Part shown: piece by piece, positions 4,059-23,181 of the stretch | How positions within the stretch are numbered: position 1 is the stretch's first letter | How the letters are laid out: each line of letters opens with the position of its first letter | Source of the DNA: Bacillus sp. CGMCC 1.16541 | GTDB lineage: Bacteria; Bacillota; Bacilli; Bacillales; Bacillaceae_H | NCBI RefSeq assembly: GCF_003184905.1 | Contig: NZ_QFRU01000026.1 | Span: forward strand, 1 to 64,000 | Direction: 5' to 3' | DNA: 64,000 nt | Program-made: the position numbers and the translations under genes | Notes under the pieces: generated by a model | What the model was told of the DNA's origin: nothing | Database searches by the model: none | Seen by the model: the letters and a program-made list of their open reading frames with translations, nothing else

Positions 4059-4066
4059 TTCTATAT

Positions 4067-6056: not shown

Positions 6057-6072
6057 AGATGTTGAGGATATA

Positions 6073-6441
6073 TTAATTAGCAGATTTTGCTACAAAATCT
6101 TTATAACCAGTTCTTTCTGGTACAAATGGATTTGAATGAGTAGACGCTCTCGTTACTTTTACTTCTCCTGCTGCATCTACTCCGCTAGTTGTACCTGATT
6201 TTTGACTTGTAGTTCCTTTATCATCGGTAACCCAAACAGTTACAGAATATACTATGCCATCACTTTTTCGATCCCAAAGCTTAGAGTAAAGGATACCATC
6301 AGCATTTTCTCCACCATACCATGTCGCACCGCCACCATTTAAAGATTCAGAAGCTGCCATAGCAACTGTTGAAAACCCTAAAGTCATTACACATGCTGCA
6401 AGTAAACCTGTAGCACCTTTTTTGATTTTTTTGAATTCCAT
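6073..6441 (-). CDS. Lactococcin-972-family bacteriocin precursor
   Basis: A 122-residue secreted precursor. The ATG at 6439-6441 is chosen because a GAGGGAG ribosome site lies 9 bases upstream; the in-frame ATG three codons earlier is too close to it. A signal peptide (basic MEFKKIKK, hydrophobic stretch, VAMA cleavage) occupies residues 1-27. The mature part has the Gly-rich N-terminus (NGGGATWYGG) and the Tyr/Ser/Trp-rich beta pattern of lactococcin 972, a lipid-II-binding septum inhibitor. No cysteines are present, so it is not a disulfide or lanthionine peptide. The exporter genes downstream support the call. Confidence 0.75.
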   Translation of the reverse strand: MEFKKIKKGATGLLAACVMTLGFSTVAMAASESLNGGGATWYGGENADGILYSKLWDRKSDGIVYSVTVWVTDDKGTTSQKSGTTSGVDAAGEVKVTRASTHSNPFVPERTGYKDFVAKSAN

Positions 6442-6450
6442 TGTATCCAT

Positions 6451-8231: not shown

Positions 8232-8521
8232 TTCTTTTTTAGTACGTCACGGAGAATGGCAATTTCTAAATCTTTTTCGCCTAACAGCTTTTTAAGCTGG
8301 TCATTCTCCGTCTCCAACTGTTTGAACACTGAGAGAGAAACGATCTCCTGAATGCCGGAATCATCTAGATTTCCTTTTTCCTTAAAAGCTTTTACCCATT
8401 TGCTTACGAGATTTGGACTAAGTTCATGACGCCTTGCCACCAAAGCTCGATTGTCGGTTTCAATTGCTTCTTGTACCACCTGTTGTTTAAATTCTGCAGA
8501 ATGTTTTCGTCTTTGCATCAC
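8201..8521 (-). CDS. IS3-family orfA transposase subunit
   Basis: A 106-residue protein with the helix-turn-helix of the IS3 orfA family (KHSAEFKQQVVQEAIE, then LVARRHELSPNLVSKWVK) and a C-terminal coiled coil (LETENDQLKKLLGEKDLEIAIL). Its 3' end overlaps the start of the orfB frame, consistent with programmed frameshifting in intact relatives. This copy is intact, but its orfB partner is dead. Confidence 0.9.
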   Translation of the reverse strand: MMQRRKHSAEFKQQVVQEAIETDNRALVARRHELSPNLVSKWVKAFKEKGNLDDSGIQEIVSLSVFKQLETENDQLKKLLGEKDLEIAILRDVLKKKNPHLLKRLK

Positions 8522-8594: not shown

Positions 8595-9311
8595 AGAGCA
8601 CTTAACAAAGCACATCAACTATATGAAGTTGCTTGTGAAAAGGAAATCCCTGTCTACGAGCCATTTGAGGGAGCCCTAATTGGAGAATTTAAAGTACTTT
8701 CCCCTTTCGAAGACTGGTATATTAACTACTTATTACCCTATTTCCCAAATTTACCAAATAGAAAGGAACAAAATGTTATTACTAAAGCAATTTCAGAGGC
8801 TTATGCAAAACTTTTAGAATGGATTGATGAAACATGGGATAAAGAAACTTTAAGTGAGAACTATGATTCTACTGGTGCAAGAAATGAAAGTAGTGTTGTC
8901 TTATACGCTAATATTGATGACTATCAAGTTCTACTTACTGGCGATGCTGGGAAACAAGCACTTCATAATAGTGCTGATTATGCTGAATCTTTAGGCATAG
9001 ATTTAAGGGAATGTAAATTTGTACAAATGCCTCATCATGGTAGCAGACGCAATGTTTCACCTAGTGTTCTTGATAGGATTATTGGTGAAAAAATATCGGA
9101 AGGTACACAACCAAATACTACTACATTTGTTTCAATATCAAAGCAGACTGAAGATCATCCAAAAAGGGTTGTAGTAAATGCATTTATAAGAAGAGGAGCA
9201 AAAGTGTGTGAAACAAGAGGACAAACTATAAGACACCACAAAAATATGCCAGAAAGAACTGGTTGGACTGCCATAACACCTCTTTCATTCAATCCTAATG
9301 TTGAAAAATAA
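8595..9311 (+). pseudogene. ComEC-like metallo-beta-lactamase-fold protein, 5'-truncated
   Basis: An open frame runs uninterrupted from the edge of the insertion sequence to 9311 (238 codons), with an in-frame stop at 8592-8594 and no plausible start at its beginning. It holds the C-terminal part of a metallo-beta-lactamase fold of the ComEC/Rec2-like class: a strand pair ending LLTGDAGK, the QMPHHGSRRNVS motif, and a final strand-helix unit. The N-terminal HxHxDH metal-binding region is absent and is not found left of the insertion sequence. The membrane protein gene follows after 20 bases, suggesting a two-gene unit. Function is unknown; similar folds occur in anti-phage systems. Confidence 0.7.
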
Positions 9312-9331
9312 CAATAATAGAGGAGATACAA

Positions 9332-10063
9332 ATGAACCTAGATGTTGTACTAAATACATATGAAAGAAGAGCAAGATACCTACCAGCAGTTTTGACAGTT
9401 TCACCAGTTATTATTTGGTTATATCTTTGGTTCCCTGATATACGCTCATTAGAAGGGACATTTATTAGTTTAATTGTTGGTTTAGGTATTTCAGTTCCAC
9501 TTTCTATACTCCCAAGAACCTTAGGTAAAAAAGAACAAGAGAAATTACTAGTTAAATGGGGTGCTCTTCCTGCTACTTTAATCCTAAAAAGTAATGATTC
9601 GTCTATAAATAGAGAAACGAAAAACCGTTATCATCAACGACTGAGGTTATTAACAAACGTGGATATTCCAACACCTGAAAAAGAATTAGAAGATCCACTA
9701 GATGCAACAAGAAAATTTGATTCCTGTATTGATTATCTTAGGCAAAGAACTAGAGATAAGGTTAAATATTCTTTAATTTTTAATGAAAACGTTTCTTATG
9801 GTCAGGCAAGAAATTTACTTGGGTTAAAACCTTTAGGATTAACACTATGTTTAATTGTATTAGCAATTCAATCATTTCATATTTATAAAAACTATGGGTT
9901 GGGACTGAATATTTCTGCAGTTCCAATTTTAGAAGTAATTTCAGTAGTTATTACCCTGATATTTTTATCGTTTTGGATATTCTTTGTTAGTTCCAAACAA
10001 GTATATAATGCTGGGGTAAATTACGGAAAAGCACTACTAGAGTCATGCGAACATATTGAATAA
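9332..10063 (+). CDS. Four-helix membrane protein of unknown function
   Basis: A 243-residue protein with two predicted transmembrane hairpins: helices near residues 18-36 and 41-60, and 167-186 and 196-220. They flank a cytoplasmic domain of about 105 residues (65-165) rich in charged residues. An AGAGGAG ribosome site precedes the ATG. It directly follows the truncated metallo-beta-lactamase-fold gene and ends in a good terminator. I do not recognise the family. The layout of paired membrane hairpins around a soluble domain recalls effector proteins of defence systems, but that is only analogy. Confidence 0.7.
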   Translation: MNLDVVLNTYERRARYLPAVLTVSPVIIWLYLWFPDIRSLEGTFISLIVGLGISVPLSILPRTLGKKEQEKLLVKWGALPATLILKSNDSSINRETKNRYHQRLRLLTNVDIPTPEKELEDPLDATRKFDSCIDYLRQRTRDKVKYSLIFNENVSYGQARNLLGLKPLGLTLCLIVLAIQSFHIYKNYGLGLNISAVPILEVISVVITLIFLSFWIFFVSSKQVYNAGVNYGKALLESCEHIE

Positions 10064-10087
10064 ATTGGAACATATATGTATTTGCAG

Positions 10088-10125
10088 AAAAGAGAGAATG
10101 ATTTTTTCATTTATTCTCTCTTTTT
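10088..10125 (+). terminator. Terminator after the membrane protein gene
   Basis: Arms AAAAGAGAGAAT and ATTCTCTCTTTTT form a stem with a T-run on the plus strand, 25 bases after the stop codon. Confidence 0.8.
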
Positions 10126-10235
10126 ACTGCTAAATTGTGATAACAACTAAATAATGTTTAAATCTAAAAATAACTATTACATCAACCTTTTCAGCCACTC
10201 TTTATCAAGAATAACTTCAACTCTCTGCTTTACCA

Positions 10236-10257
10236 CTATTTGTGATACGGTTCCCCC
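10236..10257. repeat. Left attachment site (attL)
   Basis: A 22-bp exact copy of the rlmH 3'-end sequence at 22619-22640, in the same orientation (TTTGTGATACGG near its start, CCCCC at its end). The minus-strand codons read Gly-Glu-Pro-Tyr-His-Lys-stop. Inside the element the sequence diverges at once (TATCAATTTAAAGG). A 9-bp arm of the terminal inverted repeat follows at 10269-10277. The 180 bases left of it, back to 10063, hold only the terminator. Confidence 0.85.
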
Positions 10258-10326
10258 TATCAATTTAAAGGTAATGGACAATTAAAAGCAGTCATCAAGT
10301 AGTTTACTTGGTGACTGCTTACTCAT

Positions 10327-10527
10327 TTATTCAGATTGGGCATCACTCCGATCTAAAAACTCCCCTAACTCCTGCTTCGATAAATCTTGTAGTGTCTTAT
10401 TGTTGGTCTGACAATACTCATATAGAGCTCGCACCTTTACTCTTGGTTCGTATTTATCCCTTGGTACAGCAAATACTCCATCTTCAAAAAAGTCATCCAT
10501 TTTCTTCCTATTAGTCAACCAACCCAC
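10327..10527 (-). CDS. Small protein of unknown function
   Basis: A 66-residue acidic/basic mixed protein (contains KMDDFFEDGVFAVPRDKYEP). It overlaps the upstream 73-residue gene by 13 bases and is the last gene before attL. The overlap suggests translational coupling. There is no membrane segment or recognisable domain. A protein beginning at Met10 is also possible. Confidence 0.45.
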   Translation of the reverse strand: MGWLTNRKKMDDFFEDGVFAVPRDKYEPRVKVRALYEYCQTNNKTLQDLSKQELGEFLDRSDAQSE

Positions 10528-10736
10528 CTCATAAGCGTGTTCTTTTCTTTTATAGACAGCCCTTTCATCTTCTCTTTCACATCATCCTCAAAGTATATTA
10601 ATTCGTAGCTTTTGTCGAAGACAAGAAGTTGGTTGATGGCATTGACTTTTTCAATAATAGTTTCTATTGCGATTTCAATATCAGCGACTTCTTTTGTTCC
10701 ACACAAATGTTCTCTTGCCACATTGATGTCACTCAT
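10515..10736 (-). CDS. Small protein of unknown function
   Basis: A 73-residue protein predicted to be largely helical and acidic. A GGGAGG ribosome site precedes the ATG. It lies 16 bases after the RNase H-like gene and overlaps the next small gene, so the three probably form one transcript. I do not recognise it. Confidence 0.5.
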   Translation of the reverse strand: MSDINVAREHLCGTKEVADIEIAIETIIEKVNAINQLLVFDKSYELIYFEDDVKEKMKGLSIKEKNTLMRWVG

Positions 10737-10752
10737 GGTTTTCCTCCCATAA

Positions 10753-11325
10753 CTATTTCCTTTTTAACAGTGTGTAGCATGCATTATGAGATGCCTTCAT
10801 AAAAGGGTTATGTTTCTTCTGATGTGTTGACAAGTATTGTATAGAGATCGTAATTTGGCAGTATTCCTTTTTCTTTGCTTCATATAAGGAAATTAACTCT
10901 GATTGCAACTTAGATAGCGTTTCGTTTTTCCTAAAAATGACTTCTTTTGAAATGAGTTGTTCAATGTTGTTGACATCAGAGTAAATAACAACGTTCTTGA
11001 CGTTCTTTCCCATATGCTTTTGAAAATGTTTAATACCAAACATTATTGCTTTCAGTTCCCCGTATATATTTTTTCCAATACAATCATAAGGCGGATAAAA
11101 CGAGTACTGTTTTACGATGACTGAACCATTTGTTACATATGTACAAGCAACAGCCATCTCTTTGCTCCCTTCTGTCCTACAGGAGCTGTCACAATACACA
11201 TACAAAGCATCTATACTATAATATTGTTGTAGTACGACCTCCTTTATTTCAACAGGTATACGATGTTCCCTACCTCTCCAAAAATTCACTTTCCCTACTC
11301 TTTTCACATTCCCTTTTGCTTTCAT
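10753..11325 (-). CDS. RNase H-like nuclease domain protein
   Basis: A 190-residue protein with the RNase H fold pattern. Asp46 lies in the first strand (YVYCDSSCR), Glu90 in the helix motif YGELKA, and Asp117 in the IYSDVNN strand; a C-terminal His180-Asn181 could supply the fourth metal site. The carboxylate spacing matches RNase HI, though the basic N-terminal 30 residues are extra. The predicted activity is cleavage of RNA in RNA-DNA hybrids, or a related nuclease role. Two small genes follow in the same direction. Its role within the element is not evident. Confidence 0.65.
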   Translation of the reverse strand: MKAKGNVKRVGKVNFWRGREHRIPVEIKEVVLQQYYSIDALYVYCDSSCRTEGSKEMAVACTYVTNGSVIVKQYSFYPPYDCIGKNIYGELKAIMFGIKHFQKHMGKNVKNVVIYSDVNNIEQLISKEVIFRKNETLSKLQSELISLYEAKKKEYCQITISIQYLSTHQKKHNPFMKASHNACYTLLKRK

Positions 11326-11458
11326 TCAAACATGCTCCATCTATTAATCATTTCAGATATAGTATAAACTATCACTTGTTAATTATCAAAATATTCAAAT
11401 TATTTATAGTCGATAAAAAAATCCATGTTGCCTATATACAGCATGGGTGCATCCTTTT

Positions 11459-11701
11459 TTACTTGTCCTGGCTCGAACGACACCTTTCCAACATCTCTCC
11501 TAAGTCAATATCTAAAGCATTAGAAAGGTTAAATAAAACCTCAATACTTATATTATTTCTCTCTCCATTTTCAATTCTGAATATAAAAGAAGCACTTACC
11601 GATGATATTTCACTCAAGCGATTCAAACTTAGTGATTGCTCTTCTCTTTTCCTGCGTAATTTCCTTGCAAACTCTTTCACAAACACGTCTTCACTGTACA
11701 T
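11459..11701 (-). CDS. XRE-family transcriptional regulator
   Basis: An 80-residue, single-domain Cro/cI-type helix-turn-helix protein (FARKLRRKREEQSLSLNRLS, then SASFIFRIENGERN). I place the start at the ATG at 11699-11701, after an AAGGGG site. The frame can be extended 41 codons upstream, but that stretch is Cys/Arg-rich and unlike the family. It is divergent from the 164-residue gene at 11878 and probably controls its own transcription and that of its neighbours. Confidence 0.7.
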   Translation of the reverse strand: MYSEDVFVKEFARKLRRKREEQSLSLNRLSEISSVSASFIFRIENGERNNISIEVLFNLSNALDIDLGEMLERCRSSQDK

Positions 11702-11877
11702 GTCCCTTCCCCTTCCCATCTTTTTTTCAAAAACCTTTTTCATGATTTCCCTATATCTTAAACATGAGCAAACCAGACAATAACTTCGCTTTTGTACTAT
11801 TTTCTCTTGCTTGAATAAATTCAAGGTCAGGAATCTATAATGAAAAAACTTTATTATGAGAAAGGAGTTAGATTGAC

Positions 11878-12372
11878 ATGAACAGAGAACAATTTTACAA
11901 CACAGTGCCTGAGAAAAGAGTTATTCTCATCAATGAAATGTTAAAAAACAGCAGTATAAAGGAAGTGGCAACTAATATTGGTGTCCCAGAAAGCAGTTTC
12001 AGTAAGGAGATGACAAACGGGGATTATGTCTATATCAAGAGAGATAATCAATATTACAAGTTTTTGAGAGACCCAAACTCTTCTATCACCAAAGAGTCAC
12101 TTCCGAGTGCCGACACGATACAATTTGTTGAGGAGAATCTTGAAACATTACGAGACATTATCACTGTTTTCCAAAAACAACAAGACATGCTGGTGTTAGA
12201 TGAACGAGTCTATAATAAAAGCAAAAAGTTTGTGAATAAGAGTATTAAAATGAATCATGACGTTTACGAGCAATTTGTGCAGTTTTGCGAGAAGCATTAT
12301 CCCTATTTAACCATCCAAGACTTGGTGGCACAGAGTTTGCTTGATTTTATAGACAGGTATGAAAAAAAGTAG
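11878..12372 (+). CDS. Putative DNA-binding protein of the element
   Basis: A 164-residue protein. The N-terminus has a helix-turn-helix-like stretch (SSIKEVATNIGVPESSFSKE, residues 25-44) followed by a short beta segment (DYVYIKRDNQYYKF). The C-terminus (about 115-160) resembles a helical dimerisation or segregation domain. An AAAGGAG ribosome site precedes the ATG. It is the only plus-strand gene among these cargo genes and ends at a terminator shared with hsdR. DNA binding is inferred from the helix-turn-helix pattern; the exact role is unknown. Confidence 0.55.
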   Translation: MNREQFYNTVPEKRVILINEMLKNSSIKEVATNIGVPESSFSKEMTNGDYVYIKRDNQYYKFLRDPNSSITKESLPSADTIQFVEENLETLRDIITVFQKQQDMLVLDERVYNKSKKFVNKSIKMNHDVYEQFVQFCEKHYPYLTIQDLVAQSLLDFIDRYEKK

Positions 12373-12394
12373 TGCTGCGATGCACTACTTTTTT
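12364..12394. terminator. Bidirectional terminator
   Basis: A 14-bp stem (arms 12362-12375 and 12382-12394) has A and T runs on both sides. It sits between the converging 164-residue gene and hsdR, so it can serve both strands. Confidence 0.8.
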
Positions 12395-12397
12395 CAT

Positions 12398-15382
12398 TTA
12401 GGCTCTCAATCCTTCATATACTTCCTCAAACATATCTTCCATGATTAGCGTTTTGAAATCGTTGTTTTCAAGCATCTTCAGGAAGAACGCTTCATTTTGC
12501 GACATGCGTGAAATGACAAAATCCATAAATGCCTTTTCATAGCTGAACTTGAAGTTTTCTTTTGTGTTGTTCTTCGCTTTTTGAGCTAATTCCTCGTCTT
12601 TTATCATGTCTTCTTTAATTTGATCTCTTGACAGTTTGTCCGTTTCCGTAAATTCTGTTCCAAATCGTTCATTCAGTCGATCAATGATGGAGGATAAACG
12701 TTCTTTTTCTTCTTCTGCTTTTTTTCCTTTTCCATGTGATTGCGGGCTAAGCTCTACTTCTCCTTGGACAGTTAGGGAGATACTGCCTTCAAACACTTTT
12801 TCGTTTCGATAATATTCAAGAGCGACATCATCAGCTAAATAGACACCTTCTGATACGTTTTTCGGCAACTTTTTCAACAGATAGTTCAGGTACACATACA
12901 GCTTGTGTAAATCAATATCTGCAAACGGCCCAATCTGTAAAATGAACGAGTAGGTTCGAATGAACTTCGTAGAAGCCCCTTTGAAGTCGTCTTTTTGCTC
13001 TGGTGTTAAATCCTTATTGTAGCGGTTTACTGCATGATCAAGGATGGAATTGAGCTTTTCTTGAGTTCTTGTTGTCTTTTTCTTGCCACTGAACTCTAAC
13101 TCACATACTTGATTGATTTCTTCTTCTGTGTAAACCTGACAAGCATCTAACTCTTGTTGCAAGTCGTATAAGAGATTGGGATCTGTCGTACTTTCTAATC
13201 CTGTCACTTCATAATAAGGCTGGAAAGCTTTTTGAATGTCTTCTGCTTCATTGACAAAATCAAGTACGAACGTGTCATTCTTCCCCTTGCATGTTCGATT
13301 CAGTCTGGAAAGAGTCTGAACGGCTTTAATCCCATCAAGAGGCTTATCGACATACATTGTGTGAAGCAAAGGCTCGTCAAAACCTGTTTGATACTTCTCC
13401 GCAACAAGTAATACCTTATATTCATCTTGGTGAAACTTCTCAGGCAATTCTTTTTCTCCAAAACCGTTCATATCTGGTTCAGTGTATGACATTCCACCAT
13501 CTTGAACGGTCCCTGAAAAGGCAACAACTGCTTTGAGGTCGTCATATCCCTTTACATGAATATACTTATCAAATGCTTGCTTGTATTTAACAGCATGAAG
13601 ACGGCTTCCTGTCACAACCATTGCCTTTGCCCGACCACCAATTTTGTGCCTTGTGACTTGTCGGTAATGTTCAATCATTATTTCGGTCTTCTGTGCAATG
13701 TTATGGGGATGAAGCGACACATACTTAGCAATTTGTTTCGTTGCTTTACCTTTTGCCACCTCTGGATCATCGTCTATACTCTTCGCAACCTTGTAGAAGG
13801 TTTTATACGTTGTGTAGTTCTTCAATACATCTAAAATAAAGCCTTCTTCAATCGCTTGTCTCATCGTATACACATGAAAAGCATACGGCTTTCCTTCAGC
13901 ATCATATGTGCCGAACTTTTCAATTGTCTTCGGTTTAGGCGTTGCAGTAAAGGCGAAGAACGATATGTTATCCTGTTTGCCACTTTTGGCTATTGTTTCA
14001 GCAATTTTCTCTTCCATATCACCCATGTTTTCTTCTGCCAGTCGATCTGCTTCAAGAGCCTCCTCTAACGTCTTGTCCGATAAGATGTTCGTCATAGCTG
14101 TTGAAGCTTTCCCACCTTGGCTTGAGTGTGCTTCATCAATAATGATGGCATATTTTCCTTTATGGAAATCGCCCACTTTTTCCATGATGAATGGGAACTT
14201 TTGCAACGTAGTTATGATGATTCTCGTACCATTTGCAATCGCATTCGCTAATTGAGTGGAATCTTTATCAATCTTTTCGACCATTCCCGCTTTATGTTCC
14301 AATTGGTAGACGGCATCTTGAAGCTGTTTATCCAACACTCTACGGTCGGTAATGACTATCACACTACTGAAAACAGCGTTGTTTTCATCATCATGAAGTT
14401 TTGCCAGACGGTGTGCCAACCAGGAAATACTGTTCGTTTTCCCGCTTCCTGCACTATGTTGAATTAGATAGTTCTCCCCAACACCTTTGTTCTTCACATC
14501 TACTTCTACCTTGCGAACGACATCCAATTGATGATAACGAGGGAAAATGACCGTCTCTTTCTTATCAATGATCTCACCTGTGCTATCTTTGATATCCTCT
14601 TGCTTTACAAAAACAAAGCGGAAGAGAATGTCTAAGAGACTGTCTTTCTGTAATATGTCCGTCCATAAGTACGATGTTCGATAGTCATTGTAGACAATAG
14701 GATTCCCTTTCCCTCCATTGTTTCCTCGATTAAACGGTAGGAAGAACGTCTTTTCCCGATTTAATTGTGTTGTCATGTAAACTTCATCCGTATCAACAGC
14801 AAAGAAGACAATGGCACGCTTTTTAAACTGGAACAGCAACTCTCTCGGATCTCGATCATTCATAAATTGTTTTTTTGAATGTTCAACCGTTTGATTTGTT
14901 AGTTGGTTTTTCAGCTCCATGACTGCAATAGGCAAGCCATTGAGGGAGATGAGCATATCAATACTGTTTGTGTTCTGACTGCTGTAATACACTTGACGAC
15001 TAACTGTGAAAATATTTTGCTCATACTGCTCCACTAACGTACGATTCATCGTGCTGACAGGCTTATTGTAGGCTAATTTAAGTGTCACCCCATAATCTTT
15101 AATACCATGTCGTAGACAGTCAATCATGCCTCGCTTGTCCAACTCTTTTTGCAATCGGTCAATGATTTTGGACTTGTATTGATCTTTGTATGCCTTGTGC
15201 AGACGTTCAAGCGACTTAGGTTGCGTTGCTTCCAAAAATTGAAACAGCACGTCAGTGTCAATTGCGTACTTCTTGAAGACTTCCGCTGACTGTCCTGTCA
15301 GTTGACGTTTGACATAGCCAGATTGGATTAAATGACTTTCAATATTTGCTTCAAATCCTTTTTCCGTTGTATCTATTGCCAC
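12398..15382 (-). CDS. hsdR: Type I restriction enzyme, R (motor/nuclease) subunit
   Basis: A 994-residue HsdR. The N-terminal nuclease domain has a PD-(D/E)xK-type core (SIDMLISL, then AVMELKN near residue 155). The SF2 translocase has Walker A HSAGSGKTNS and motif II IIIDEAHSSQ, with FTATP as motif III. A helical C-terminal domain contacts the methylase. The GTG at 15380-15382 is chosen because AAGGAGGGG lies 6 bases upstream; an upstream in-frame ATG inside hsdS lacks a ribosome site. In the complex with HsdM and HsdS it translocates DNA and cuts unmethylated foreign DNA. No defect is seen. Confidence 0.95.
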   Translation of the reverse strand: MAIDTTEKGFEANIESHLIQSGYVKRQLTGQSAEVFKKYAIDTDVLFQFLEATQPKSLERLHKAYKDQYKSKIIDRLQKELDKRGMIDCLRHGIKDYGVTLKLAYNKPVSTMNRTLVEQYEQNIFTVSRQVYYSSQNTNSIDMLISLNGLPIAVMELKNQLTNQTVEHSKKQFMNDRDPRELLFQFKKRAIVFFAVDTDEVYMTTQLNREKTFFLPFNRGNNGGKGNPIVYNDYRTSYLWTDILQKDSLLDILFRFVFVKQEDIKDSTGEIIDKKETVIFPRYHQLDVVRKVEVDVKNKGVGENYLIQHSAGSGKTNSISWLAHRLAKLHDDENNAVFSSVIVITDRRVLDKQLQDAVYQLEHKAGMVEKIDKDSTQLANAIANGTRIIITTLQKFPFIMEKVGDFHKGKYAIIIDEAHSSQGGKASTAMTNILSDKTLEEALEADRLAEENMGDMEEKIAETIAKSGKQDNISFFAFTATPKPKTIEKFGTYDAEGKPYAFHVYTMRQAIEEGFILDVLKNYTTYKTFYKVAKSIDDDPEVAKGKATKQIAKYVSLHPHNIAQKTEIMIEHYRQVTRHKIGGRAKAMVVTGSRLHAVKYKQAFDKYIHVKGYDDLKAVVAFSGTVQDGGMSYTEPDMNGFGEKELPEKFHQDEYKVLLVAEKYQTGFDEPLLHTMYVDKPLDGIKAVQTLSRLNRTCKGKNDTFVLDFVNEAEDIQKAFQPYYEVTGLESTTDPNLLYDLQQELDACQVYTEEEINQVCELEFSGKKKTTRTQEKLNSILDHAVNRYNKDLTPEQKDDFKGASTKFIRTYSFILQIGPFADIDLHKLYVYLNYLLKKLPKNVSEGVYLADDVALEYYRNEKVFEGSISLTVQGEVELSPQSHGKGKKAEEEKERLSSIIDRLNERFGTEFTETDKLSRDQIKEDMIKDEELAQKAKNNTKENFKFSYEKAFMDFVISRMSQNEAFFLKMLENNDFKTLIMEDMFEEVYEGLRA

Positions 15383-15395
15383 TGCTCTCCCCTCC

Positions 15396-16712
15396 TTATG
15401 ACAACACTTTTTTATACTCCCGCACATCTATTTTCCCTGTGACTGCTTCATAGATGAGAGATTGGCGGTATTCTTTGAGTTTTCCAATTTGTTCTTTAAT
15501 ATCCATAATTGAGGAATATAATTCTTTTGTTTGTTTCTCAATATATTTTGAAATATATCGTTGCTCTTCAATACTGTCAGATAACGGAAGTAATAAATTC
15601 CTTACTTGCGGAAAATTTAGTCCTTCTCTTGAACTTCCATTCTGTGCCATGATAATTTGTTCTTGTACAATTTGTGAACCCATTATTTTTGATAGTAGTG
15701 CAGGGACTATCTTACTTTTACCTGGTCTTATTATACAAACATGTTGGTTTACATTAGCAGGTGGAAAGTTAGCAGGAACTATACACGTTCTACCAATAGA
15801 TGCTCCTGTAATATTTAACAAAATGTCTTGAGATTTAACCCTTGTAGACTTCATATCATCGTCTATTTCAGGATTTATATAAACTATATCGTTTAATCTT
15901 AAACCTTCAAAGTGTACATTCATACTTCTCAAGAACATGACACCTTCATTAGTATATATTTCCCCGCCACCTTTTGGAGTTTTGCCACTACCAACGTAGG
16001 TAGATAGATGTTTTATTTTCTTAATCTTCCAATGCTCTGGAATCTCCCCAATCCATTCCACACCTGAATCTTTCATTTTCACGTTTGGGTTTAATCCTTT
16101 TGTGACAGCTTCGGTGATGATCGCTTGACGTTTTTCTTCGAGCAATTCAATTAGCTTTTCCTTGTCGGCAATGAGCGAGTCGATTTCGGATGTTTTTTCA
16201 TTTAAAAAGTTTGCAATATTTTTTTGTTCTGCTTCCGAGGGCACTAAAGTTACTAAATTCTTTACATCCTCTGTAGTAACCGATTCAAACGTACTACCTT
16301 TAAGTTTAGAATTCATTTCAACCTTAGCATACTGAATCAAATACCATAAATATCTATTTTTCTCTTTTGGTCTTATTGCACATAACCCTCTTCCAATTGC
16401 ATAAACTTGATTAGATATATTCATTGCTCCAACAGGTGCTCTTACAGAAAAAAGAATATCATCAACTTCTGAAACCTTATTAGTTGATTTACAGTACAGC
16501 TTTGGTAAAGGATAATATTGTCCAAACTCTGCATTCCCCTGTAAAAATGGAGCACCAACTTCAATATCACTTACTTCATCAGAAGATGGAGATTGTCCCA
16601 TTACAATATCAGAAACATATTTTAATCGTGATATTTTCCAATCATAAGGGACTTGCTTAATCCAATCTAAACCACTTTCCTTATACTTGGAATAATTCTG
16701 AATCCTCCTCAT
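15396..16712 (-). CDS. hsdS: Type I restriction enzyme, specificity subunit
   Basis: A 438-residue HsdS with two target-recognition domains. Each begins with the usual short motif (ESGLDWIKQVPYDW near residue 12 and DSGVEWIGEIPEHW near 210) and each is followed by a long conserved helix (residues about 165-200 and 385-430). The two halves set the two parts of the bipartite DNA target. The gene overlaps the end of hsdM by 4 bases (ATGA) and runs directly into hsdR. Only one hsdS copy is present and no inverted hsdS fragments are seen, so phase-variable shuffling is not suggested. Confidence 0.95.
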   Translation of the reverse strand: MRRIQNYSKYKESGLDWIKQVPYDWKISRLKYVSDIVMGQSPSSDEVSDIEVGAPFLQGNAEFGQYYPLPKLYCKSTNKVSEVDDILFSVRAPVGAMNISNQVYAIGRGLCAIRPKEKNRYLWYLIQYAKVEMNSKLKGSTFESVTTEDVKNLVTLVPSEAEQKNIANFLNEKTSEIDSLIADKEKLIELLEEKRQAIITEAVTKGLNPNVKMKDSGVEWIGEIPEHWKIKKIKHLSTYVGSGKTPKGGGEIYTNEGVMFLRSMNVHFEGLRLNDIVYINPEIDDDMKSTRVKSQDILLNITGASIGRTCIVPANFPPANVNQHVCIIRPGKSKIVPALLSKIMGSQIVQEQIIMAQNGSSREGLNFPQVRNLLLPLSDSIEEQRYISKYIEKQTKELYSSIMDIKEQIGKLKEYRQSLIYEAVTGKIDVREYKKVLS

Positions 16713-18718
16713 CTACCCATCACCTTCTTCAACTTCTCCAAGATGCTCTCTTCCAACGCCTTGATTTCTTCCTTGATAACCTCGGAGCTTCTGAGTGCTG
16801 TGTATTGGTAGAAATGGCGAGTAAATGGAATTTCATAGCCAACCTTTGTTTTGCTTTCGTCAATCCACGCATCTGGGACATGGGGTTTCACTTCACGCTC
16901 GAAATATTCATAAATGTCCTCTTTTAATGGAACGTTTTCTGTATCTCGTAAGTCTGTATCAGGTTCTGGATTTCCTTTGCTATCCTTGCAAATCTCGGCT
17001 GTTTCATCTTTTTCCGATAAAGCATTCAAGATGGCTTTCAACAGTGGAGCACCAACGGTAATATCCTTTTCTTTGAACAGCTTCTTTACTTTCTTTGTAA
17101 ACTCTTCTCGATTCTTGTATAGCTCGTCAGATTGAATGGACAATAGAGCATCCACAATGTTTGTTTGTTGTTTGGTTCCTAACTCTATCTCTTTTAGCCC
17201 TGCTTCACCTTTTTTCTTGGACTTTGCCAAATTGACAAACGCAGTTTGTTCGTAGAGCTTGTTTACTCTTTCTTCATCTATTTTGAAGTTCAGGCGTAAT
17301 GGTCTTTCCACTGTGATTTTGTGATAGCCGAAATCTTGATTATCAAAGATCTTAACGTGCTCTCCCGCTTTTAGATCTCCATACATTCTCACAATCTCAT
17401 GGATATGCTGTTCAGAAAGCTCATTCCGCTTACTTCCCATGCTTTTCTTCATTTTTTGATACAGATGTATAGCATTGACAAGTTGAATTTTCCCTTTTCG
17501 TAAAGGACTTTTATGGTTAGTTAAAATCCAAATGTACGTTGCAATACCTGTGTTGTAAAAAAGGTCGTTTGGCATCGCCACAATACCTTCTACTAAGTCA
17601 TTTTCAATCATATATCTGCGGATTTCACTTTCTCCGCTTCCTGCATCTCCTGTGAAGAGAGGGGAACCGTTCATAATGATCGCAAGTCGAGAACCTTTCG
17701 GATTATCCTCAGTGACTGGCTTCATTTTGGACACCAGGTGTTGCAAGAAGAGTAGTTGTCCATCTGATATTCTTGGAAGTCCCGCTCCAAATCTACCGTT
17801 AAACCCTAAGTTTTCATATTCTGCTTTCACAGCCTTTTCTGCTGGCTTCCATTCCACCCCATATGGCGGATTTGTGATGAGGTAGTCAAATTTCTTGTCA
17901 GAAAACGCATCGTTCGATAACGTATTCCCAAACCGAATGTTTTTTGCTTCTTCCCCTTTGATGAGGATGTCAGCCTTACAAATGGCATACGACTCTTCGT
18001 TGATTTCTTGGGCAAAGAACTCTAATTCAGCCGTAGGATTAAGCTCCTTTAAATACTCTTGAGCTACTGAACCCATCCCTCCTGTACCCGCACATGAATC
18101 GTAGAGTGTCTGCGTAATGCCAGGTTTCGTCAAAATGTCTTCATCCTCAAGGAATAATAGGCTGACCATCAAACGTACAACTTCTCTTGGTGTGTAATGG
18201 TCCCCAGCTTCCGCATGCTCTGAAAATCTACGAATAAGCTCCTCAAAGATATAGCCCATCTCGACATTCGATACGACCTCTGGATGCAAGTCAATTTCAC
18301 TGAAACGTTTAACTACAAGATAGAGCAAGTCGTTCCGTTCCATCTTTTCAATTTGCTTGTCAAAATCAAAATACTCGATAATGTCTCTTGCTGTTTTTGA
18401 AAAACCGTTAATGTAGTCTCTTAAGTTATCAGCAATATTGTCTGCATCGCTTAGTAGCTTTGAGAAGTCATATTTACTGATGTTACTGAACTTTTGTTTT
18501 GCTTCACGATTTAAAATTTCATCTCTTGAATCTTCAGGCAAACTTTTGAACTGTTCATATTTTTGCAAAACATCTTCTTTTGTTTCTGACAATACACAAT
18601 CAAATCTGCGTAAAACCGCCATAGGAAGAACGACTTTTCCGTAATCGTCTGGCTTGTATGGTCCCCTTAAGATTTCTGCTATGGACCAAATAAAACTAAC
18701 TTTTTCTTGGAAATTCAT
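16709..18718 (-). CDS. hsdM: Type I restriction enzyme, methylase subunit
   Basis: A 669-residue N6-adenine methyltransferase. An N-terminal helical HsdM domain (residues 1-150) is followed by the SAM-binding motif DSCAGTGGMGSV (about 208-219) and the catalytic motif NPPYG (about 281-285). It is longer than the roughly 500-residue HsdM of E. coli because of an extended C-terminal part, including a Lys-rich stretch near 500. First gene of hsdM-hsdS-hsdR; the promoter must lie in the 138 bases upstream. It methylates host sites together with HsdS. Confidence 0.95.
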   Translation of the reverse strand: MNFQEKVSFIWSIAEILRGPYKPDDYGKVVLPMAVLRRFDCVLSETKEDVLQKYEQFKSLPEDSRDEILNREAKQKFSNISKYDFSKLLSDADNIADNLRDYINGFSKTARDIIEYFDFDKQIEKMERNDLLYLVVKRFSEIDLHPEVVSNVEMGYIFEELIRRFSEHAEAGDHYTPREVVRLMVSLLFLEDEDILTKPGITQTLYDSCAGTGGMGSVAQEYLKELNPTAELEFFAQEINEESYAICKADILIKGEEAKNIRFGNTLSNDAFSDKKFDYLITNPPYGVEWKPAEKAVKAEYENLGFNGRFGAGLPRISDGQLLFLQHLVSKMKPVTEDNPKGSRLAIIMNGSPLFTGDAGSGESEIRRYMIENDLVEGIVAMPNDLFYNTGIATYIWILTNHKSPLRKGKIQLVNAIHLYQKMKKSMGSKRNELSEQHIHEIVRMYGDLKAGEHVKIFDNQDFGYHKITVERPLRLNFKIDEERVNKLYEQTAFVNLAKSKKKGEAGLKEIELGTKQQTNIVDALLSIQSDELYKNREEFTKKVKKLFKEKDITVGAPLLKAILNALSEKDETAEICKDSKGNPEPDTDLRDTENVPLKEDIYEYFEREVKPHVPDAWIDESKTKVGYEIPFTRHFYQYTALRSSEVIKEEIKALEESILEKLKKVMGR

Positions 18719-18856
18719 TTAGACAAACTCCTTTTTTCACTCTATGTAATCCCACACCAAATGGGCATGGGTAAAAAAACAATGCTACTACTATTTTATC
18801 AAATATAGACGCTGTTGTTTACAAATAATTGGAACATGCCATTGGATCGGTTGTTT

Positions 18857-19864
18857 TCATTGGATAATGAAAGGATTATTCATGTGGCTTGGAAAATCTT
18901 TGCGGTTTTTGGGGATGAGGATGGGATTAATGTTTAGTTGTTCTAATTCCTTGAGGTAATTACGGTAGGTTGGCTTGGAGAGATACTTTTTAGGGGCGTC
19001 AATGCCGTTATTGCTTATATCCACGAGGAACGCTCGAAGTTTTTCTTTTCTCTTTCTTGAAAGAGGACTATTCTCAATGATTTTTTCTGCTTGATGAATT
19101 TTGTAGTAGTCTCCTTTTCGAATGATGGGTGTGATTTGATTGATCATATAATGTTTATACAGATTTTCCTTAAAATACTCTTTTAACTTTTTCGGTCTTC
19201 CTTTTCCTTTGCTATCGTTTCTTTTCATAGAATTTAAATGTTCATTCTTTAGCCTCAGTTCATATCGGATTACATCTTTCTCATATGGTTGAACGATTTC
19301 TCTCTTCGCCATTCTTTCATCCTCTTTTGAATAAATGACAAACTCTGTGCTCTGACATTTGTGATATTGGGATGTTTCATACTTCATTGGATTTCCTTCC
19401 TCGTCTTTGCCCCACTTGATTTTCTTTTTGTAAAAGTAAATGCGAGTGTATTTCTCGTATAAATGAAAGAGTAACTTTCGATGATCTTTGTTTGGTATGA
19501 CAACGTCAAGCTTATAATCTATTCTTGTTAGTCTGTGATTGTTGAAATATTCTGTGCTACCAAACTGAGAATACAAAAACTTCTTGATTGAAGATTCTAC
19601 CGTTAGATAATCTGCTTCCACGATTTTCCCTTTGCCCAACAATTTCACCAAGTCCACTTTGAGATGAGCATCCCAAACTCCTTTTCCTTGGGAACAAAGC
19701 CAAGTGAAGACAAATTCAGAGTGTGACTGTTTGAGGTTTTCGTTTAGTTTCTTTACTACAGCACCAAAATGATGATAAGCATCTGATTGAACATTATGTT
19801 TCTTTAATAGTCGTTTAATAGTTTCATAGTCAATTGAAAGAATCATCTCTATTGTGTGAATCAT
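18857..19864 (-). CDS. Candidate replication initiation protein (gene II/X-like)
   Basis: A 335-residue basic protein. Features resembling phage/plasmid replication proteins of the gene II/X type include the N-terminal MIHTIEMIL strand, a TRIDYKLDVVI motif (about residue 120), and a region with repeated Tyr and charged residues (EFVIYSKEDER, then YEKDVIRYELRLKNEHLN). I chose the ATG at 19862-19864, 11 bases after an AAGGAG; an upstream in-frame start adds 12 residues. It would let the excised circle replicate. The assignment is by motif impression only; a relaxase-like or other role is possible. Confidence 0.45.
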   Translation of the reverse strand: MIHTIEMILSIDYETIKRLLKKHNVQSDAYHHFGAVVKKLNENLKQSHSEFVFTWLCSQGKGVWDAHLKVDLVKLLGKGKIVEADYLTVESSIKKFLYSQFGSTEYFNNHRLTRIDYKLDVVIPNKDHRKLLFHLYEKYTRIYFYKKKIKWGKDEEGNPMKYETSQYHKCQSTEFVIYSKEDERMAKREIVQPYEKDVIRYELRLKNEHLNSMKRNDSKGKGRPKKLKEYFKENLYKHYMINQITPIIRKGDYYKIHQAEKIIENSPLSRKRKEKLRAFLVDISNNGIDAPKKYLSKPTYRNYLKELEQLNINPILIPKNRKDFPSHMNNPFIIQ

Positions 19865-19900
19865 TTTTCTATCATCTCCTTCATAGACAATCGGGAACAA

Positions 19901-20151
19901 TGCAGTCTTCTTCCTGCTTAGTTTGAACTACAAGAAATTTTTCCCGCCCCCAACCAATTTAAAAGACCTTCCAACACATTGAAAGAACAATGTGTTTCTT
20001 TGTTATTTGATTGATAGAATGTGGGGAAATAATACGAAGTGACAAAAAATGGAGTGCTTTTAAAAGACATTTTATACACTTGTCAATGGATAATGAAGGG
20101 GAAAACGGTTCTATATAGTTCGAGTAATGGAAGCTACGCTTCTTGCTAAAT
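19901..20151. other. Gap between the Rep-like and regulator genes
   Basis: No convincing gene. A minus-strand frame (19959-20201) is possible, but it has a low-complexity composition and includes the terminator hairpin. An origin for the Rep-like protein could lie here; I see no diagnostic iterons. Confidence 0.3.
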
Positions 20152-20185
20152 AAAAAAAACAGTTTTCGGCCGCTGCGGAAAACTG
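20152..20185 (-). terminator. Terminator after the XRE regulator
   Basis: Arms CAGTTTTC (20160-20167) and GAAAACTG (20178-20185) with a GC-rich middle are followed on the minus strand by eight T residues. It lies 20 bases past the regulator stop. Confidence 0.8.
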
Positions 20186-20204
20186 AATCAACTATCATCA
20201 CCTT

Positions 20205-20714
20205 CTATTCCTCATATAACGTTTCTCCTGCATTTGCTATTTTGTTTAAGGCTTCTTCCACTTTGAGGAGGTCGTAAATGCCGATTTCTAAACAAGAAAC
20301 TATTATTCTATCTTTGATCGAATTGCTAAACGTATACCCCCTGGTGAGCAACAATTCTTTTGTTTCTTCTACTGTTAGAGTCATAGCAAATGCCATTCTT
20401 AATAACTTATACTTTGACGGATTCGTTCGCCCATTTATCACATGACTGATATACCCTTTTGAGAAACCAGATTTATTTGCAAGATCTTGTTGCGTCATCT
20501 CAAGCTTGAAGAGAGCTTCATTAATGAATTGTCCTAATGTTTTAGTAGGACGTTTATTTCTTTCTACAAGACTAACCAATTTTTCCAATTCGTGGATTGA
20601 TAAAGCATGATGAAAGATTGTGCTCTCACTAATTCCATAAAGTTCACTGATACATAACAAGTCAAAGCCATGTAACATATATTCATTTATCTCAGACAAA
20701 AAATCATTTTCCAT
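20205..20714 (-). CDS. XRE-family regulator beside the recombinase
   Basis: A 169-residue protein. A Cro/cI helix-turn-helix (KLEMTQQDLANKSGFSKGYI, then SHVINGRTNPS) occupies about residues 60-115. The N-terminal 50 residues also look like a small helix-turn-helix, and a helical C-terminus follows. The ATG at 20712-20714 has a GGGGGG site about 10 bases upstream; a TTG start 6 codons earlier is possible. It is divergent from the recombinase operon, with a palindrome in the shared intergenic region, so it is a likely repressor of excision genes. Confidence 0.75.
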   Translation of the reverse strand: MENDFLSEINEYMLHGFDLLCISELYGISESTIFHHALSIHELEKLVSLVERNKRPTKTLGQFINEALFKLEMTQQDLANKSGFSKGYISHVINGRTNPSKYKLLRMAFAMTLTVEETKELLLTRGYTFSNSIKDRIIVSCLEIGIYDLLKVEEALNKIANAGETLYEE

Positions 20715-20736
20715 ATCCTCATATCCCCCCAAAAGA

Positions 20737-20753
20737 GTATAAAAATTTTATAC
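20737..20753. promoter_or_regulatory. Palindromic operator candidate
   Basis: The 17-bp sequence GTATAAAAATTTTATAC is a perfect inverted repeat in the divergent intergenic region between the XRE regulator and the recombinase operon. It overlaps the expected promoter region and is a natural binding site for a dimeric XRE repressor. Binding is inferred. Confidence 0.45.
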
Positions 20754-20830
20754 CACATAGAAAAATGGTTTTTATATACTATAGTCAACAAAGCAAAAAT
20801 TTATTTTTCAAAGAAAAGGTGGTGTTTCTT

Positions 20831-20995
20831 ATGACCAATTTTCATCAAAATAATATTACACAACAAAGAGAATTTCCAGCAAAAGAGAAAGCATTCTCAA
20901 GTAAAACAAGTGATGATAAACTAAGAACAATTTCTGAATTAATTTTCACTGCAATCTTTAGAAAAGAAAACCAAACATTAAAGGAAGGTGCGTAA
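20831..20995 (+). CDS. Small protein upstream of the recombinase
   Basis: A 54-residue protein (MTNFHQNNITQQREFPAKEK at the start). The ATG at 20831 follows AAGGTGGTG at good spacing; an upstream in-frame ATG has no ribosome site. The stop is 3 bases before the recombinase start, implying one transcript and coupled translation. I do not recognise it. By position it could be an excision factor or control peptide, which is speculative. Confidence 0.55.
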   Translation: MTNFHQNNITQQREFPAKEKAFSSKTSDDKLRTISELIFTAIFRKENQTLKEGA

Positions 20996-20998
20996 TAG

Positions 20999-22675
20999 AT
21001 GAAAAAGAAAGAGATTGTTGTTGGAATTTATCTTCGAGTTTCTACTGATAAGCAAGCTCAAGAAGGGTTTTCAATTGACGGACAAGAACATGAAGCGACA
21101 GAATTTGCTCACAAGTATTTTATCGGTCATGAATTAGCGATAAGAGTCTATGTAGATGAAGGAGTTAGTGCTAAAAGTATAAAAGGGAGAAAAGATTTGA
21201 ATAGAATGATGAGAGATGTTAAAGCTGGGGCACTGGATGTTGTCATCACTTATAAGGTAAGTCGATTAAGTCGAACTTTGTCTGACTCTCTCAAAATTGT
21301 GGAAGAAATACACAAAGAAAAAGTCAGATTTATTAGCATCAAAGAAGGAGAGTATGGAACTCCACACGCCAATCTTCAATTCAATATATTAGCATCCGTG
21401 GCCCAATATCAACGTGAGGAGTTGGTAGAAAACGTAAAAATGGGCATGAGTCAACGTGCAAGGATTGGGAAATTCAACGGCGGTTTAGTGTTAGGCTATG
21501 AAACGATTGAAAAGGAATTAGTTATCGTCCCTGAAGAAGCTGAAACAGTGAAATTAATCTTTACAAAATTTGTTCATGAAGGTTGGGGAACCAAAAAAAT
21601 TGCGAATTATCTTAATGATATCGGAAGGCGAACAAAGAAAAACAATCCTTTCTCCGTCTCTACAGTTTCCATCATCCTTGATAATCCCATATACAAAGGA
21701 TATATACGATTTAATCAAGTGATTGGCTGGGAACAAAACAGAAGAAAAGGAAAAAATCCTGATTATATCCTATCAAAAGGTCAGCATAAGCCTATCATTG
21801 ATGAGGAAACATGGGATAAAGCAAATTTGATAAGAAAACAACGAGCAACAGGAATGCCACGACAATATTCAGGGACTTTTCCTTTAACCTCTATTCTCAA
21901 ATGTCCCCAATGTGGTGCTTATATGACCAGTTTGTACGGTGCAAAAAGAAAAGATGGAACAAAAAAGAGATATTATGCTTGTGGGATGTATCATAACCAA
22001 GGCAGATCGGTGTGCAATCCAAACTTAATAGATGCTGACTGGATTGAAAAAGAAGTGTTCAAACGAGTACAGGAGGCATTTATTTCTGATGAGAGTGTAA
22101 ATAACATCACAAATGAGATTAACCATCACATTCGACAACATCCAAGCTATATGAATAAAACAAATGAAGAACAAATATGGAAAAACAAGTTGAAAGAGCT
22201 TGAAAATCGAAAAAAAAGAATTCAAGAATTAGTTGAGTCAGAAATTTATACCGTTGAAGAAGCAAAAGCAAGAATGAGTGAATTAAGAAGTGAGACCGAA
22301 AAGACAAAAGAGAGTTTACAAAAAGCAATAAAAAGGCAATCCACCTCCACTGTTACTCTGAAAGCTGTAACACCAGATTTTATTAGACAACAATTACAAG
22401 AGTTCATGGAGTTAAAAGAACAATTATCTGTTCAAGAGTTTCGACAATTACTGGTGGCTTCCATCGAAAAAATAGAGGCAAGCAAAAAAGAACTAAAAAA
22501 CATCTACTTCTCCTTTATTGCTCACCTACCGAACTTGGATCCCTCAGATCCAGTTCTACATAAGACTGATGATTCTCCTATCCTGCTGAGGGGATTATAT
22601 TTTAAGTCCAACCATTACCTATTTGTGATACGGTTCCCCCCGATTAATCCGAAACGCTCTGTATACTTGTTCTAA
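20999..22675 (+). CDS. Large serine recombinase (integrase) of the rlmH element
   Basis: A 558-residue large serine recombinase. The resolvase-type catalytic domain holds the nucleophile Ser15 (YLRVSTDKQ) and the YKVSRLSRT arginine motif. A recombinase domain (about 160-285) follows, then a zinc ribbon with Cys pairs (LKCPQCGAY, then [16 protein letters not shown]) and a coiled coil (about 385-450). An AAGGAAGGTG ribosome site precedes the ATG. The last 57 bases run through attR into rlmH on the opposite strand, so the final 12 residues come from host DNA. It catalyses insertion into, and with a helper excision from, the rlmH end. Confidence 0.9.
22619..22640. repeat. Right attachment site (attR) at the rlmH stop
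   Basis: An exact 22-bp repeat of 10236-10257. It covers the rlmH stop codon and the codons for Gly-Glu-Pro-Tyr-His-Lys, so the rlmH C-terminus is preserved. The reverse-complement core CCGTATCACAAATAG is similar to the staphylococcal SCC target at the same gene position (core TATCATAA there, TATCACAA here). Confidence 0.85.
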
Positions 22676-23098
22676 CAAAATCAACCTCATAAGCTGATGA
22701 GGAAAGGTCATCTTAGAAAATGAGAGCTTGTCGTTTGAGCGTTTTAGGACTTCGTCGCTGAGGCCGAGTGAGCCGCCGATGACGAAGGCGATTTTGCTTT
22801 TTCCGTATGTTGCGAGCTTGTCTAAGTCGGTTGCAAGCTCTTCAGATGATTTTTGTTTGCCTTGGATCGCTAAGGCGATGACGTGGGTGTCGTCTGAAAT
22901 TTTAGATAAAATACGCTCGCCCTCTTTGTTTTTGACTTGCTCCATTTCAGATTCACTTAAATTTTCTGGGGCTTTTTCATCAGGTAGTTCGATGATGTCG
23001 ATTTTTGCGTACGGCCTTAGACGTTTTGTATATTCGGCAATGCCTTGTTTTAAATATTTCTCTTTTAATTTTCCAATTGTCACAATTGAGATATTCAC
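22619..23098 (-). CDS. rlmH: 23S rRNA pseudouridine-1915 N3-methyltransferase
   Basis: A 159-residue SPOUT-family methyltransferase, near-identical in length to Bacillus RlmH. The N-terminal strand is [18 protein letters not shown]; the SAM-binding knot holds [10 protein letters not shown] (about 103-112), and the C-terminus is [13 protein letters not shown]. The start is the GTG at 23096-23098, after a GGGGAT site; longer in-frame ATGs would read through the DnaA-box cluster. It methylates pseudouridine 1915 of 23S rRNA. Its 3' end is the insertion site of the adjacent element and its coding sequence is intact. It overlaps the recombinase 3' end tail to tail. Confidence 0.97.
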
Positions 23099-23123
23099 AG
23101 TTAATCCCCGCTTTACAAACATG

Positions 23124-23166
23124 TTATCCACAAAACTTATCCACATATCCACATTTACTATCCACA
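23124..23166. promoter_or_regulatory. DnaA-box cluster upstream of rlmH
   Basis: Four boxes in one orientation and 43 bases: TTATCCACA at 23124-23132 and 23137-23145 (both perfect), ATATCCACA at 23145-23153 and CTATCCACA at 23158-23166. It lies just upstream of rlmH (yydA), where B. subtilis has one of its origin-proximal DnaA-box clusters that titrate DnaA. Confidence 0.75.
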
Positions 23167-23181
23167 TCTTGTATGAGAATA

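Follow-up and report, generated by a model that had tools for sequence, protein, structure and literature searches.

We propose that the 12.4-kb island at 10258-22618 of the window, by which we mean the whole 64,000-nucleotide stretch of Bacillus sp. CGMCC 1.16541 analysed here (the left part of a 66-kb contig from a 3.97-Mb genome), is very probably a site-specific integrative island with the architecture of a staphylococcal cassette chromosome (SCC), in which a CcrB-like large serine recombinase joins the attachment site of the circular form (attP) to the 3′ end of rlmH, attP lies inside the last codons of the recombinase gene, and the tail of the enzyme is replaced on integration. After transfer, the circle would make a recombinase with a short native tail, presumably the form that selection keeps, and this enzyme would recombine attP with the rlmH 3′ end, probably with exchange at GGT-TC-ACC. 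The left part of attP would rebuild the last RlmH codons, allowing the host gene to survive, and integration would exchange the last four codons and stop of the recombinase for residues encoded antisense to rlmH. Excision would restore both the rlmH end and the native recombinase tail. The recombinase, two helix-turn-helix (HTH) regulators, a Rep-like protein and a 164-aa protein would form the backbone of such an element, with a type I restriction-modification system as its cargo. The sequence evidence that carries this model lies in the paired sites, the preserved RlmH end, the gene order, a matching unoccupied site, the read-through of the recombinase frame, and conserved predicted circular ends in 24 elements.

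The features on which the argument draws are listed here from left to right with coordinates, strand and description (ORF, open reading frame).
10236..10257, no strand: attL, distal site copy, 22 bp identical to the rlmH 3′ end (by sequence identity)
10269..10277, no strand: inverted repeat of 9 bp, left arm
10327..10527, minus: 66-aa ORF, common to loci L245 and L246
10515..10736, minus: 73-aa ORF, common to L245 and L246
10753..11325, minus: RNase H-like protein, common to L245 and L246
11459..11824, minus: HTH regulator, backbone
11878..12372, plus: 164-aa backbone protein, PHROG 2727 (function unassigned in PHROG)
12398..15427, minus: HsdR, type I restriction subunit, cargo
15396..16712, minus: HsdS, type I specificity subunit, cargo
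16709..18718, minus: HsdM, type I methyltransferase, cargo
18857..19900, minus: Rep-like protein, backbone, 67-68% in L056, L245 and L246
20205..20732, minus: HTH regulator, backbone, 57-59% in L056, L245 and L246
20765..20995, plus: 76-aa ORF directly upstream of the recombinase, without a family match
20999..22675, plus: CcrB-like large serine recombinase, 558 aa as integrated, with codons from ~22637 host-derived (rlmH antisense)
22612..22620, no strand: inverted repeat of 9 bp, right arm
22619..22640, no strand: attR, rlmH-side copy, within both rlmH and the recombinase frame (by sequence identity)
22619..23167, minus: rlmH, target gene, ending GEPYHK-stop (matches RlmH models)

SCC elements are defined by insertion at the rlmH 3′ end with direct repeats, terminal inverted repeats, a CcrA, CcrB or CcrC recombinase, and precise excision and circularisation; the window shows the rlmH 3′-end insertion with flanking direct repeats and the terminal inverted repeats. 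The island is bounded by two identical copies of CTATTTGTGATACGGTTCCCCC, at 10236-10257 and 22619-22640, whose adjoining bases differ on both sides, and no repeated 20-mer occurs in 20 Markov controls of the window. The right copy is the rlmH 3′ end, read on the minus strand as GEPYHK-stop. A preliminary description of this DNA had reported these 22-bp repeats, which are exact copies absent from the Markov controls, and a large serine recombinase adjoining rlmH, in which we find Resolvase, Recombinase and zinc-ribbon domains. It had also placed a 9-bp inverted repeat just inside the direct repeats; the repeat, AGGTAATGG, is present at 10269-10277 and 22612-22620, but its right arm shares two bases with the 22-bp repeat.

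What had been missed is that the recombinase gene spans the attachment site. Its frame, 20999-22675, stays open across the right repeat; its stop lies outside the element, 57 nt inside rlmH, in antisense orientation and in the rlmH codon register. Relatives were drawn from three sources: named genomes, of whose 303 relatives the best 80 were kept; the host's order, in which 54 of 397 genomes hold a match; and 20 retrieved stretches. Seven duplicate loci (L009, L010, L011, L141, L148, L196, L206) were dropped ahead of counting, recombinase matches below 150 bits were left out of the counts, and frames below 420 aa were additionally left out of the tree. This leaves 43 distinct loci whose recombinase ends at most 400 nt from a convergent rlmH, among which L034, frameshifted and filtered under these rules, is not counted as overlapping. 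The recombinase overlaps rlmH in 39 of the 43 (the window and 38 of 42 others): 35 are of type A, in the register of the window, three are of type B, in the other register (L055, L138, L146), and one is shortened (L197). The four without overlap are L051, from Paenibacillus and of a clade whose genes are not nested in the site, and L192, L202 and L205, which look frameshifted rather than properly ended. Counted by hand, at least 30 of the 397 genomes carry a straddling-type recombinase at rlmH (31 with the shortened L197), a lower bound because 4 of 57 matches (G095, G108, G121, G272) were never inspected as loci. The named hosts are Amphibacillus, Aneurinibacillus, Alkalihalobacterium, Bacillus, Terrilactibacillus, Virgibacillus, Ureibacillus, Rossellomorea, Lysinibacillus and Planococcus. 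The host of the window probably belongs to one order with Alkalihalobacterium chitinilyticum, as G173, a genome of the host's order, has a recombinase locus identical to L037. A search of titles and abstract openings, with subscription papers, preprints and supplements outside its scope, found no published report of a straddling recombinase at rlmH. The placement of the element outside Staphylococcus had been described correctly, and SCC-like islands at rlmH in such hosts are already known in print, as the available parts of two reports attest (PMC6222049, PMC10061031). Two variants of the arrangement were also seen: in L039 the integrated frame extends 498 nt beyond the first base of the rlmH stop codon and is open antisense across the entire rlmH, and in L144 and L149 (G061, G142) straddling recombinases adjoin a site without a recognisable rlmH after it, perhaps at secondary insertion sites.

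To predict the ends that these enzymes would have on a circle, the recombinase frame was read across the predicted junction in 24 type A elements with a second site copy, which fall into three clades. In group i, that of the window, the predicted ends are RFPLSI (window), RFPVSI (L056), RLTVTI (L035), RFTVTI (L137) and RFPTLI (L136); in group ii (n = 11) they follow RF[TS]V-x-[IVF], for example RFTVVI, and in group iii (n = 8) RFTVTL-x-RV[KN], with one extra N in L049. Groups i and ii have the circular stop 4 codons past the shared F (L in L035) without exception (16 of 16); in group iii it lies 8 codons past the F in 7 of the 8 elements and 9 codons past it in the remaining one. In the integrated state the same 24 elements stop 12-159 codons past the shared F, and it is this replacement of a short conserved tail by 12-159 other residues that points to integration as an event that swaps the tail of the enzyme. 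One group ii element, L145, has TGA in place of TAA and keeps the stop. Type B uses the other register with a comparable outcome, all three circular ends lying 19-21 residues past a shared GTV (YISI, FISI, FINILA) as against 3 residues when integrated. CcrB-like proteins of the non-nested kind often end in comparable hydrophobic stretches, such as RFTIVI (L048) and LYLTI (Staphylococcus aureus). Conservation of the predicted circular ends within groups is solid, and their homology with ordinary CcrB ends is plausible.

The position of the strand exchange can be narrowed from the symmetry of the reconstructed attP. The preliminary description took TATCACAA as the core; it does lie within the 22-bp repeat, but we reject it as the probable crossover, the attP dyad of the relatives being centred at GGT-TC-ACC. 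With even-centred scoring, the dyad centre falls between core positions 17 and 18, CGGTT/C[AT]CCG, in 19 of 19 attPs of groups ii and iii, and an odd-centred count makes base 18 best or tied in 4 of 5 attPs of group i. Exchange therefore probably takes place, as far as the predicted sites tell, at GGT-TC-ACC (core 17-18, within the Gly-Glu-Pro codons of RlmH) and not at TATCACAA. At core position 13 the base differs between the two site copies in L056 and L035. Two genomes with window-type elements, G434 and G429, belong to a database genus that also includes Lysinibacillus endophyticus and Ureibacillus manganicus, and of the 22 rlmH ends read by script there (3 of 25 loci were unmatched) 19 have CCG at this site, G434 among them, the other three having CCT in L056 and G429 and CCA in one. 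As a pointer to the exchange position this pattern is suggestive only.

Several observations weigh against the model. The even-centred dyad scores of group i, the window's own, fall at 17/18 in 0 of 5 attPs and at other positions in all 5. Three of the 24 site pairs span two contigs (L063, L156, L161), the remaining 21 lying on one. Stops at 4 codons also occur in 3 of 14 control site copies and stops at 8 in 2, the rest stopping at 3, at 9-35 or past the end of the stretch; among these controls is L126, the distal site of a type B element. L224 and L225, two further copies used as controls, turned out to lie in the window-type elements of G429 and G434, with the reading RFTVSI. Circular and integrated tails are not separated by a profile drawn from 20 non-nested CcrB-like proteins, because its alignment ends 28-40 positions short of the profile end. 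In a frame test the coding frame comes out mildly ahead for groups ii and iii and barely so for group i (0.28 vs 0.26 and 0.10), and conservation of the circular ends may be partly due to the arms of the attachment site. Finally, no circular form turned up in the collections that were searched: among viral contigs the window protein had four distant relatives (27-34%), that of L140 none and that of L025 one (29%), plasmids gave four records per search and phages 297 records, in both cases all below 60% identity.

The alternative that best survives this evidence is that the site sits in the recombinase 3′ end merely for compactness, with a dispensable tail and both forms working equally well, and we give it slightly less than even weight. 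The integrated tails, running 12-159 residues past the shared F, are conserved no more than rlmH itself, the profile sees no difference between tails, and the staphylococcal CcrB genes (L033, L054) do without any overlap, ending inside their own elements with their own stop. A dispensable tail, however, sits poorly with predicted circular ends that are conserved in each of three type A clades and again, in another frame, in type B, with the change from TAA to TGA in L145 that is still a stop, and with the frameshifted rather than properly ended appearance of the non-overlapping rlmH relatives L192, L202 and L205 of groups ii and iii. We put forward tentatively, and regard as rather unlikely, a stronger reading: the swap could act as a one-way latch, the native C-terminus, made only from the circle, driving integration and an arbitrary host-encoded tail then weakening or redirecting the enzyme until another recombinase moves the island. 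If so, no separate factor would be needed to hold the integrated state, and the same logic would apply across rlmH and ssrA islands, a large family in bacteria. To our knowledge, what decides between integration and excision in CcrB-like recombinases is not settled. As the state of the DNA would rewrite the end of the enzyme in at least 30 of the 397 sampled genomes, these islands offer a natural pair of enzyme forms that can be compared directly.

Related elements and unoccupied sites bear on whether the island moves. At rlmH, G434 and G429 show the gene order of the window, and the other copy of the site lies 14.4 kb off. Their backbone proteins are 74% (recombinase), 67% (Rep), 56-57% and 64-66% (HTH proteins), 53% (164-aa protein) and 51% (RNase H-like protein) identical to those of the window, and among the cargo HsdM reaches 93% and HsdR 93-94%, with HsdS at only 35-38%. 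Identity of HsdM and HsdR so far above the backbone suggests that the restriction module was exchanged more recently, with a changed specificity subunit; from these comparisons the module (window 12398-18718; L245, L246) seems to move separately from the backbone and to change specificity. L. endophyticus has the backbone with different cargo in an 8.5-kb element, and the recombinases of L035, L248 and L247 are 62-65% identical to that of the window, with no match to the window Rep in L035 and L248 and a 38% identical one in L247. Within the database genus of G434 and G429, a recombinase match adjoins 7 of 25 rlmH loci, and 18 of 25 have none within 1.5 kb.

The outer flank of the window element joined to rlmH gives the predicted empty site, of which 79 bp can be aligned to the rlmH end of L173; 43 bp of these are flank, at 84%. 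No recombinase match occurs in L173, whose stretch extends 1.5 kb past rlmH, and the empty-site comparison that the preliminary description had proposed thus finds a matching flank joined straight to rlmH. The same flank also adjoins the site of a different element in Cytobacillus firmus (L045), and the outer flanks of two group ii elements (L118, L125) lie directly at rlmH in L183 and L168, 93-95% identical and with no recombinase match beside rlmH in either. The window's left flank at 8700-10235 is absent from the nine other genomes of the host genus. With the paired sites, the CcrB-like recombinase, the gene order kept elsewhere and this unoccupied site, the original view of an SCC-like integrative element at rlmH is borne out. 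That the island is instead an immobile relic, as the failure to find a circular form in the collections searched might suggest, we consider improbable, for all its main genes are open, the same gene order stands at rlmH in two other genomes, and the divergence of HsdS beside near-identical HsdM and HsdR suggests recent traffic. Of three site copies with an outer flank resembling a recombinase 3′ end, those of G381 and G128 keep only a relic of the last ~35-60 residues, and the third, G117, gives no recombinase match. Beside the rlmH of another genome (G022:C52:146156-174680), seven same-orientation copies of the site pattern (at most 2 mismatches) lie within 29 kb, as a tandem array of islands or of scars.

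The recombinase belongs to the wide CcrB-like family. Against NCBIfam it scores 321.9 of 900 bits for CcrB, 256.8 of 900 for CcrC and 143.4 of 700 for CcrA, with XisF at 100, also far below cut-off; L061, a more distant large serine recombinase run alongside, scores 179 for XisF and 172 for CcrB. Over residues 8-375 it is 42.6% identical to the CcrB of an S. aureus SCC record, as compared with 35-39% for three relatives from the genus of the host. A tree of 99 recombinases places it in a clade of five with support 100, every member of which straddles; group ii (19 of 23 rows straddling rlmH), group iii (11 of 13) and type B form three further clades, and the staphylococcal CcrB and other non-nested enzymes stand elsewhere, although deep branches are weak. 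On this topology the straddling arrangement would either be ancient, with several losses, or have several origins. The tree suggested in the preliminary description separates the window enzyme from the staphylococcal CcrB clade only as firmly as those deep branches allow, and the common ancestry with SCC advanced there stands at the level of the wide CcrB-like family, CcrB being the best model, but not below it, given the sub-threshold Ccr scores and the place outside that clade. That the island is a true SCC family member, departed from staphylococci or sharing their direct ancestor, is the least probable reading of all: the shared target gene end and the 42.6% identity to S. aureus CcrB, higher than that to the own-genus relatives, speak for it, and the scores below the CcrB, CcrC and CcrA cut-offs, the position in the tree and the lack of matches to DUF927, DUF960 and DUF1643 in ten island proteins speak against it. 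The helicase and DUF genes in this comparison are those annotated in L033, the S. aureus SCC record. Two further observations concern recombinase kinship. L025, from the host's genus, and L049, from Rossellomorea aquimaris, carry near-identical straddling recombinases (tree path 0.03), which across two genera points to recent transfer, and elsewhere in the host genome (G000:C9:9706-12557; L003, L004) two adjoining large serine recombinases of 526 and 539 aa are 27% identical to that of the window.

From left to right, the repeats enclose two small ORFs, the RNase H-like gene, an HTH gene, the 164-aa gene (PHROG 2727), hsdR, hsdS, hsdM, the Rep-like gene, a second HTH gene, the 76-aa ORF and the recombinase, the main genes all being open. 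The type I restriction-modification set is complete, with clear matches to HsdM, HsdS and HsdR, in agreement with the cargo first described. The Rep-like assignment made at the same time holds in part: the protein matches PHROG 702, 'replication protein', at 5e-5 (its L056 homologue at 3e-11), but the match is weak overall and no Pfam Rep family exceeds its cut-off (Phage_CRI 17.9 of 21.7 bits, Rep_trans 17.4 of 29.6 bits). The Pfam scan, which covered ten island proteins at E 0.1 with small ORFs below 70 aa outside it, gave no match to the DUF927 helicase, DUF960 or DUF1643, and no helicase or polymerase match was found among the ten proteins.

A sister lineage treats the target gene differently. 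In five genomes (G403, G213, G188, G103, G021; loci L041, L158, L199, L200, L202, L263-L267) the host RlmH ends in EPYIF, EPYLV or EPYIFQG instead of EPYHK, and the available text of one study reports that C-terminal Y152, H153 and R154 of Escherichia coli RlmH are essential for catalysis (PMC5430550). Each of the five has another full-length rlmH that ends in EPYHK and lies ~2 kb upstream of the recombinase; a second full-length copy is absent from all nine comparison genomes, whose RlmH ends in EPYHK or EPYHR (G005 has a 43-residue match). The second gene resembles HtrA-adjoining rlmH genes in four genomes of one genus, and matches to it at E 1e-74 occur in 8 of the 397 genomes, made up of four of the five, G021 not being part of the sample, and those four HtrA-linked ones. 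The host rlmH of G103 contains an internal stop. From these gene ends it looks as if the sister lineage disables its target rlmH on insertion and supplies a substitute gene, whereas insertion of the window element keeps EPYHK.

Outside the island, at 9027-10063 to its left, a 94-aa ORF matches only the end (263-356 of 357) of the PADLOC candidate defence model PDC-M48B and is followed by a 243-aa ORF without PHROG or PADLOC match; this region is probably a truncated defence locus. The ABC transporter-like genes at 3420-6450, together with a small ORF that looks like a secreted protein, may resemble a lactococcin 972-type bacteriocin operon, and we take the ORFs at 7288-8521 to resemble broken IS3-type transposase genes. 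A direct repeat of at least about 100 bp, recognised from numerous shared 20-mers, lies at 30606-30719 and 32882-32995.

Among known systems, the island resembles SCC and SCCmec in its CcrB-like large serine recombinase, its insertion at the rlmH 3′ end, the direct repeats by which the gene end is restored, tandem copies, and restriction-modification cargo of a kind known in such islands. It differs in having a single CcrB-like gene at the rlmH border that straddles attR, a weak Rep-like gene where L033 has the DUF927 helicase, and scores under the Ccr cut-offs. The Pol-SSB primase islands at rlmH (Bacillus, Listeria, Planococcus and others), as described in the accessible part of their report, have large serine recombinases and, where they do, lie mostly downstream of rlmH, mostly carry genetic-conflict genes such as restriction-modification systems, and had their ends located by rlmH-end matches; for three of them empty sites were found, in C. 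difficile, B. cereus and B. wiedmannii (PMC10061031). That part mentions no recombinase frame crossing the site, and the window, unlike those islands, has no helicase or polymerase match among its scanned proteins. The Enterococcus cassette chromosome is an SCC-like rlmH insertion outside Staphylococcus for which circularisation and transfer were shown, but it has a ccrAB pair, and straddling is not described in the portion of the paper available (PMC6222049). Closest in arrangement are the ssrA islands of Dehalococcoides, where, according to the available text, the 3′ end of dsiB, a CcrB homologue, always overlaps the site with its stop outside the island, a fact noted in 2011, and where the authors suggested that DsiB is perhaps fully functional only on the circle (PMC3146451). 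The frame open through the site and the stop outside the element are features that DsiB has in common with the window and 38 of the 42 other loci; the target there is ssrA and here rlmH, and that text reports divergent ends and no conserved circular end. The suicidal (SSV-type) tyrosine integrases of archaea likewise carry attP within the integrase gene, which integration alters, but those enzymes are split in two, whereas the bacterial serine enzyme described here would keep its catalytic domains and lose only its tail. A 2021 review, in the part available, calls self-disrupting recombinases exclusively archaeal (PMC8371274), and a straddling bacterial recombinase bears directly on that statement.

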